Source: Cymodocea nodosa (taxonomy: Eukaryota > Streptophyta > Magnoliopsida > Alismatales > Cymodoceaceae). Taken from it: a stretch of 64,000 nt of DNA. The notes under the pieces were generated by a model. The model was not told the DNA's origin, made no database searches, and saw nothing but the letters and a program-made list of their open reading frames with translations. Both the position numbers and the translations under genes were made by a program. Of the stretch, positions 44,104 through 45,257 are shown one piece after another. Location: positions 5,146,001-5,210,000 of the forward strand of contig JAZBRI010000011.1 of assembly GCA_036874045.1 (NCBI GenBank), written 5' to 3'. How positions within the stretch are numbered: position 1 is the stretch's first letter; the number at the start of each line of letters is the position of its first letter.

Positions 44104-45257
44104 GTAATATCTGATCCTAAAAGTCATTCAGATTTCAACTTTGATGAATTATTATGTGCTTATCATGCATTATTACAAAAACTTAAAGTATGTAAACTGG
44201 AAAATAAGAATATTAGAAAATCTTCATCCATTATGGAAGAAGAAAATTGTTTCCTGTCTACTACTTTAGAAAAGTTTAAATGTGATAATGAAAATCATGC
44301 TAGAGATTTGCAAAAATTTAGATTTAATGAATGTATCTTGCATGAACAAATACAAAATGTAAATGCTGAAAAATTAAAGATAGAATCTGAAAATGAAATG
44401 TTGAGAAACAATATAAATGAACTTGAATTAGAAATAGATAAATTAAAACTGAGAGAGCAAGATTTAAATTCTACCTTTTAGAAATGGAATTTAAGTCAAA
44501 CTAAGTTAGATAAACTAACTAGTACCCCTACGGTGTCTTATAAATTTGGCTTAGGATTTGATTATCTTGAATATCTTGAATCTAAAGCCAATAAAGGATT
44601 TATTAGTTGCAGTTCAAGTAAGACAAAAATTCCTTTTATTATGAAACAAGGTAATAAATATGTAGAAGTAGATACTTCAAGGGATGAATCATGCAGTAAT
44701 TATATAAATCAATGTGATTTGTCAAATTGTACTTCTAACATGACTATAAATGTTTCTAAAAATCTTGTTCTTGTTCTGGAAATTCAGTTTCTAATGTTTC
44801 TAAAATTTCAGACAATTGTAGTAAACTGAAAATTCAGAAACCTGAGCATGTAATTCAATACACTGGTATTAGACCAATTACTCATTCTGCATGTGATAAA
44901 ACAAAAAATTCTTGTGTAGAAAAAGATTTTGTATGTACGGAAAGTGTTAATACAAGTACAAAATCTTGGTATGAACTTACAGAAATGTATAAGCATGACC
45001 AAAATAAATTAACATCTGATAAAAATATGTTTGGTCTTGATTATACTACATCTTAAAACAAAAAGAATGATTGCAAAAGCAATAATGCTATATGTGAGTA
45101 TGAAGCTAATGATAAATCAATAGTACTTACAACTAATAAGAATATAAATGATAATGTTAAACTATTTTTAAACAAAAAGAAGAAATATGCGTTTAATGAA
45201 CTTCGTCCTCAACAACATTGGGTACCAAGAAAAAGTTTTTCTTAATTTGTGTTGCAG
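44104..45257 (+). other. Predicted gag-pol intron of element G, also encoding the Gag tail
   Basis: The donor TTTGAG|GTAATA lies after codon 370 and the acceptor TTTGTGTTGCAG|GAG at 45257. Removing 1154 nt joins the frames in phase 0 (GAG then GAG GAA ACA). The unspliced tail is heptad-like (LHEQIQNVNAEKLKIESENE) and ends after HWVPRKSFS in TAA at 45243-45245. A TAG at 44479, a one-base loss near 44770 and a TAA near 45054 are decay relative to F. TTAAT, overlapping the tail's stop, could serve as branch point, although it is only about 12 nt from the acceptor. Confidence 0.65.

Follow-up and report, generated by a model that had tools for sequence, protein, structure and literature searches.

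What do the closest described systems suggest about the boundary between gag and pol in plant retrotransposons? For the Sireviruses (SIRE/Maximus lineage of Ty1/Copia), a plant-wide lineage that makes up roughly one fifth of the genome in maize (PMC9073684; this and the other publications are cited from excerpts), translational bypass or internal entry has been proposed (Gao et al., 2003, via PMC2829016, PMC5009743). Their boundary holds a 27-nt motif able to form an 11-bp stem and, at a published spacing of 10 nt, a UAG near the Gag stop (PMC2829016, PMC5009743). In these excerpts, the recoding arrangement of 2003 leaves the conserved UAG and the changing relative frames of gag and pol unexplained (PMC2829016, PMC5009743). 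In Ogre, of the Tat lineage of Ty3/gypsy, partial splicing joins the ORFs of some transcripts into a polyprotein (PMC6317226). BARE1 of barley has an optional 104-nt GT-AG intron at the gag/protease border, the splicing of which shifts the frame into a stop and yields Gag only (PMC3735527), and in EVADE/ATCOPIA93 a spliced, prematurely polyadenylated RNA, shGAG, gives rise to Gag and the unspliced RNA to Gag-Pol (PMC8892269, PMC12786077).

Here we have analysed a window of 64 kb, in which four elements, A, F, G and H, carry a segment with intron-like borders between gag and protease. We consider it probable that this segment is a coding, exitron-like GT-AG intron, retained for long Gag and removed for Gag-Pol. 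Unspliced RNA would be translated into long Gag, ending at a conserved stop after the last WVPK-type motif, while excision from GAG/GTA to YAG/G would remove a coiled-coil-like tail together with the stop and set gag in frame with protease, yielding Gag-Pol. The pol-frame UAG of A, F and H would then serve as the 3' splice site, a YAG that reads CAG in G, the efficiency of splicing would set the ratio of Gag to Gag-Pol, and occasional reverse transcription of spliced RNA would leave intron-less copies such as element E.

With Ogre, such elements would share the splicing of a transcript subset to fuse two ORFs; unlike Ogre, they are Copia elements by their domains (PF14223, rve and RVT_2), and the segment lies not between GAG-PROT and RT but between Gag and protease, where it encodes a conserved Gag domain. 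BARE1 likewise belongs to Copia and carries its optional GT-AG intron where gag meets protease, and in EVADE, too, splicing governs Gag versus Gag-Pol in a Copia element. However, BARE1 loses 104 nt and its spliced product is Gag only, and EVADE makes Gag from spliced and Gag-Pol from unspliced RNA, whereas in A, F, G, H and E the spliced frame enters protease. Exitrons are introns inside coding exons and are coding when retained. The segment resembles them in that its retained form is protein-coding, and differs in lying in a mobile element, where it would switch between two polyproteins; judging by titles and abstract openings, no such case appears among the matching papers on exitrons and retrotransposons. 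The reverse polarity that a preceding sequence-only reading of this locus had claimed fits the descriptions of BARE1 and EVADE (PMC3735527, PMC8892269, PMC12786077). The published Sireviruses are alike in their long coiled-coil Gag, a pol that is often +1, a pol-frame UAG after the Gag stop, multiple identical PPTs and the PBS TATCAGAGC, and perhaps in a boundary stem; in the excerpts, they are credited with bypass or internal entry and with no intron, whereas we read the UAG as a 3' splice site (PMC2829016, PMC5009743). Among the titles and abstract openings of the best literature matches, which included few subscription papers, we found no report of a Sirevirus gag-pol intron.

Elements A, E, F, G and H are Sirevirus-type Copia elements (SIRE lineage). 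The Gag of G combines PF14223 and zf-CCHC with a coiled-coil-like extension, as is characteristic of Sireviruses. G is a complete insertion on the plus strand that has kept the segment, with a 5' LTR at 41212-42793, a 3' LTR at 52831-54473, CTTTA target duplications at 41207-41211 and 54474-54478, a PBS at 42796-42807 and PPTs at 52505 and 52817. Its LTR junction reads CA/AGTGG/TATCAGAGC, with a 5-nt spacer before the PBS, and the C-rich signal CACCCCCTC lies about 20 nt from the LTR end; both a junction of the form CA/5-nt spacer/TATCAGAGC and such a C-rich signal close to the end of the LTR are Sirevirus features, as are multiple identical PPTs before the 3' LTR (PMC2829016). The identical PPT AAAAAGGGGGAGA occurs twice in G, twice in A and three times in E, where one is shorter. 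A pol in +1 with a pol-frame UAG near the Gag stop, a feature of a subset of Sireviruses, is found in A, and F is in frame 0. G also contains a 333-aa open frame 3' of pol (50468-51469, plus strand) without a Pfam match, perhaps the extra 3' ORF of SIRE elements, which is present in 74% of them (PMC6317226). H is a fragment (54474-58446) that opens with the last 119 bp of an LTR and the PBS, and is flanked by a 5.5-kb inverted repeat (49035-54473 / 58446-64000), 94-96% identical in three pieces.

The coordinates of the four segments given in the sequence-only reading proved exact, and each segment starts at GAG/GTA and ends at YAG/G. In G, the gag upstream exon (42994-44103, plus strand), with PF14223 gag core, CCHC knuckle and VCFMA motif, is followed by the candidate coding intron or Gag tail at 44104-45257 (1154 nt; TTTGAG/GTAATA to TTTGTGTTGCAG/GAGGAA, the last six letters of the segment being TTGCAG) and by the start of the pol exon at 45258-45308 (EETTSKWLLDSGASSHM). 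F, on the minus strand, has a gag upstream exon with decay stops at 24911-26020 and the segment at 23756-24910 (1155 nt; TTTGAG/GTAATA to TTTTTTTTGTAG/GAGGAA). In H, on the plus strand, the end of the gag exon at 55029-55760 and the start of the pol exon at 56745-57122 (AHKSKWIIDNGASSHM) enclose a segment with stops and frameshifts at 55761-56744 (984 nt; AGTGAG/GTATCC to GATTGTTTTGTAG/GCACAT, its own end being TTTTGTAG). The segment of A, on the minus strand, is the shortest (4802-5366, 565 nt; CAAGAG/GTATGT to GACTTGTAG/GACTAC), and its unspliced pol is +1 to gag, with the UAG in the pol frame.

As had been claimed, both borders fall on codon boundaries in all four elements, in phase 0, and removal of the segment joins the gag frame to protease. 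The further claim that the acceptor TAG is itself an in-frame stop needs a distinction: the acceptor trinucleotide, TAG in A, F and H and CAG in G, is a stop of the pol frame in the former three, but in A it stands outside the gag frame, because pol of A is +1 to gag. The unspliced relation of pol to gag is thus +1 in A, 0 in F, and 0 in G save for one frameshift, with the tail of H being frameshifted. In a self-comparison of the window, identity between F and G is 87.6% across 5 kb, while G is 72% identical to E, which pairs with H, and 66% to A in pol. Being such close relatives, F and G do not allow the four copies to be treated as independent cases; they represent three lineages, A, F/G and H/E. 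In all three the splice phase is 0/0 despite the differing unspliced frames, and a splice reading therefore explains the +1 of A and the frame 0 of F at once.

The borders were scored with a hand-written plant splice-site matrix, over each segment plus 600 nt on each side, and came out at or near the top. By this matrix, the donor ranks 1/84 among all GT in A, 1/115 in F, 1/114 in G and 3/88 in H, and the acceptor 8/150 among all AG in A, 1/158 in F, 1/149 in G and 1/155 in H. The donors fall short of the ideal at +5/+6 in F and G and from +4 onward in H. GAG accounts for 28% of the Glu codons in these genes (n = 115) and GTA for 32% of the Val codons (n = 53), so that a GAG GTA donor in three lineages has a codon-usage probability of about 0.0007 if shared ancestry is ignored. 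In all four elements the segments are richer in T and poorer in GC than both neighbouring 200-nt stretches, by a slim margin on the pol side of A (T content 0.29 versus 0.22 and 0.28; slim there for GC as well). Furthermore, a YTNAY motif resembling a branch point, 15-16 nt ahead of the acceptor, includes the Gag stop in G (TTAAT; stop at 45243-45245, plus strand), F (TTAAT; 23768-23770, minus strand) and H (TTGAT; 56731-56733, plus strand); the TAA of G follows WVPRKSFS and precedes the start of exon 2 by 12 nt. Together with the joint of E described below, these site ranks agree with a spliceosomal GT-AG intron in donor, acceptor and exact excision.

If retained, what would the segment encode? 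By sequence, it is the ordinary Gag C-terminal tail of this Sirevirus-type lineage plus its terminator, and is therefore coding when retained. Read in frame, the 385 codons of the F segment include 3 stops, two being the terminal TAA and TAG, whereas its other frames hold 33 and 86, and for the 188 codons of A the numbers are 2 in frame versus 18 and 26; the segments of G and H are frameshifted and show no stop contrast between frames. A protein search returned 98 homologues of the G Gag, from plants wherever the organism is named, and among 25 long-tailed Gags hand-picked from these homologues for alignment, 21 end 2-4 residues past a final WVPK/R/I motif. The elements themselves have WVPR in G, F and H and WVPK in A, followed by a stop 4-9 nt before the acceptor YAG; at the boundary of A, this is TGA, 4 nt and TAG. 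The retained form is thus the standard Gag of the relatives, with WVPK motif and Gag stop, as the proposal of a coiled-coil-like Gag tail had implied; the coiled coil was judged by eye, and in A the Pfam matches of the tail lie below the cut-off. These homologies rule out four unrelated non-coding inserts, and the conserved stop after WVPK rules out that all tail stops are random decay. Nevertheless, every copy in the window is decayed, all four segment-bearing ones having stops or frameshifts; in G the tail stops at 44479-44481 and 45054-45056 have a frameshift between them, and another frameshift is present in pol. Between F and G, constraint on the tail seems weaker than on the gag core, with a dN/dS of 0.48 (shifted-frame controls 0.58 and 0.51) versus 0.21. 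As the value for the tail is hardly under its controls, the coding claim is based on stop counts and homology instead. The frameshift in G invalidates the F/G value for pol, and the dN/dS of 0.99 for H/E pol comes from only 122 codons; neither is used as evidence.

One insertion in the window lacks the segment exactly. Element E (27347-38956, minus strand) has two LTRs (5' LTR 38956-37718, 3' LTR 28532-27347; the two differ at 44 of 1171 aligned positions, with a further 87 in gaps), a PPT and matching TCTAT target duplications on both sides (38957-38961 and 27342-27346), and is hence a complete Sirevirus-type insertion and not merely truncated. In the self-comparison of the window, its gag matches H at 54482-55778 and its pol matches H from 56743, with nothing in between, and the H segment (55761-56744), used as a probe against E, found no match. 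A probe of exon 1, ending at H 55760, matches E up to 36545 (91.8%), and the match of an exon-2 probe whose first base is H 56745 begins with the third base, at 36542 (91.5%), which places the first base at 36544. The joint therefore lies at 36544-36545 on the minus strand, with GAG at 36547-36545 and GTACAC from 36544: where H reads GAG/GTATCC...TGTAG/GCACATAAATC, E, about 92% identical beside the joint, reads GAG/GTACACAAATC. Gag and pol of E share one frame, VCFMAKSNEVHKSK followed by a stop and IMDSGAS, and this stop, a TGG to TAG change relative to H, is the only break in the frame across the joint. Since A, F/G, H and the relatives all carry the tail, it is E that has lost it.

An AGG microhomology at the joint means that a repair deletion has to be weighed. 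We simulated 400,000 deletions in H, each 300-2000 bp long, and scored them with the same hand-written matrix; three had a GT-AG pair scoring as well as the joint of E, and all of these belong to the 32,819 deletions whose microhomology is 3 nt or more. Given this rarity, E looks like reverse-transcribed spliced RNA, which we regard as the better explanation. E is the one intron-less copy seen in the 64-kb window. Element B (8050-12445, plus strand) is 92.8% identical to E from mid-pol onward and cut at its 5' side, and is therefore uninformative on the spread of the intron-less form.

Beyond the window, the donor position is recognisable in related proteins. After the LCLMA-type motif, E, K or Q is followed by V in 40 of 45 pol-less proteins (33 E, 5 K, 2 Q), compared with a mean of 12.7 and a maximum of 23 in 5000 draws of random windows from the same proteins, and all three pairs can be written as ..AG/GT codon pairs. 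Two of the five misses, P0020 and P0192, are a chimera and a fused model and not plain Gags. The conserved V may reflect an amino-acid constraint, and the proteins are related, some closely.

Published gene models also skip the tail. A search keyed on a fused protein gave mostly Citrus among the best 120 of 676 matches. Of 228 proteins, 147 were labelled and 135 were scorable, and in 105 of the latter pol begins within about 40 residues of the motif with no tail between. Such tail-less joints occur in nine plant genera, Citrus (83/98), Fagus (8/8), Vitis (4/4), Manihot (4/8), Cicer (1/2), and Pistacia, Rubroshorea, Cuscuta and Hibiscus (1/1 each), and in one ENA contig protein; by eye, E or K precedes V or G at the joint in all nine except Cuscuta and Hibiscus, where the joint is ambiguous, and one of the eight Fagus models, P0018, has the usual donor and a later acceptor. 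The other 30 have another joint or no motif: 15 of 98 in Citrus, two of which (P0144, P0164) resemble the usual joint by eye, 4 of 8 in Manihot and 1 of 2 in Cicer, and, in six genera with this outcome only, 4 of 4 in Hevea, 2 of 2 in Cannabis and single models of Ulmus, Malania, Tanacetum and Pinus. Eight models from Manihot and Hevea have other donors, and seven of them retain VCLKS or VCLIS as the beginning of pol. Gene models are weak evidence because prediction programs make up introns in order to avoid stop codons; considering this habit and a search keyed on a fused protein, the models point to conserved splice-like signals, not to splicing. The ENA protein P0044, from a contig that may be DNA or RNA or carry a gene model, shares 82% identity with the unspliced Gag P0023 as far as ...AHGDEV, and from precisely that point runs on in pol.

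A relative with gag, tail and pol in one unbroken frame, which the sequence-only reading had named as evidence against itself, was not among 120 proteins with a protease motif (the best 120 of 676 matches, up to about 1386 aa), none of which has a WVPK within the 90 residues before that motif; the protein searches spanned 0.55-1.75 times the query length, so that unbroken frames of about 1430 aa or more would have been missed. In searches for the DNA of relatives, viral contigs gave 22 (gag alignment) and 50 (pol alignment) pattern stretches, and prokaryote genome contigs gave 84 with the gag alignment, none of which was confirmed. Plasmid records gave distant matches to pol, the best five being 24.8-32.7% identical and all 20 below 60%. 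Two of these 'plasmids', of Streptomyces camelliae and Kitasatospora cathayae (PLSDB NZ_CP115302.1 and NZ_CP115454.1; 5159 and 4649 bp), hold a nearly complete Copia-type pol and are perhaps plant retrotransposon DNA filed as bacterial plasmids.

Could Pol be made instead by translational recoding, be it bypass, frameshift, readthrough or internal entry, with a tail that is simply Gag, incidental splice-like signals and a chance deletion in E? Bypass or internal entry is the published idea (PMC2829016), and the boundary stem and the UAG near the Gag stop have been described for Sireviruses (PMC2829016, PMC5009743). All four elements here also have a predicted hairpin, some 15-65 nt ahead of the acceptor; in H it lies within 56680-56729 (plus strand) and overlaps the GPIQKWVPR codons, with homologous stretches in A (4817-4866, minus), F (23771-23820, minus) and G (45193-45242, plus), and H is the one element in which it clearly exceeds shuffles (z -4.6, compared with -1.8 in A, -1.5 in F and +0.3 in G). 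These hairpins are likened to the published 27-nt motif by description, not by letters. In G a single TAA separates the tail end from pol, but F would need to pass two stops. Moreover, recoding does not explain why the splice phase stays 0/0 when the unspliced frames of A and F differ, why donor and acceptor rank at the top, or why the joint of E is exact, and we consider it quite unlikely. That nothing functional is present, the pattern being due to decayed copies, the habit of gene finders and GT and AG from coding constraint, appears highly improbable: the stops or frameshifts in all four copies and a possible amino-acid constraint on the donor V would agree with it, but E is a complete insertion, and a joint like its own arose 3 times in 400,000 simulated deletions.

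Splicing might also be real but a by-product, or serve another role such as removing genomic RNA, with Pol made mainly by another route. BARE1 and EVADE splice towards Gag-only RNA (PMC3735527, PMC8892269), E attests only to a one-time copying of a spliced RNA, and the gene models have varied donors, with the VCLKS or VCLIS start of pol kept in those seven of eight from Manihot and Hevea. Yet the spliced frame leads from gag into protease, and not into a stop, in all three lineages, and 40 of 45 relatives keep the donor codon pair; this possibility, too, seems rather unlikely to us. We therefore favour the coding intron. Of the intron first proposed, the intron-like borders, the in-frame fusion, a copy with the spliced structure and a retained form equal to standard Gag have been found, and the polarity fits; that the segment is spliced in RNA, that the spliced product is the normal source of Pol, and that splicing is regulated and sets the ratio of Gag to Gag-Pol, we infer.

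In some plant genomes the Sireviruses rank with the most abundant elements, and the excerpted account leaves open how they produce Pol, suggesting bypass or internal entry (PMC2829016). It seems to us somewhat better than an even chance that all of them express Pol via this coding intron, with the UAG as 3' splice site and intron-less insertions as fossils of packaged spliced RNA; in this wider reading, the shifting frames of gag and pol would reflect the freedom that splicing gives the unspliced frame. If true, the coding intron would provide one mechanism for Sirevirus Pol and a reason for the drift of gag and pol frames, and would turn round the known polarity of splicing in plant Copia elements, the product of which is Gag. 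Copies with an exact joint, such as E, would then offer a simple marker for counting the reverse transcription of spliced RNA.
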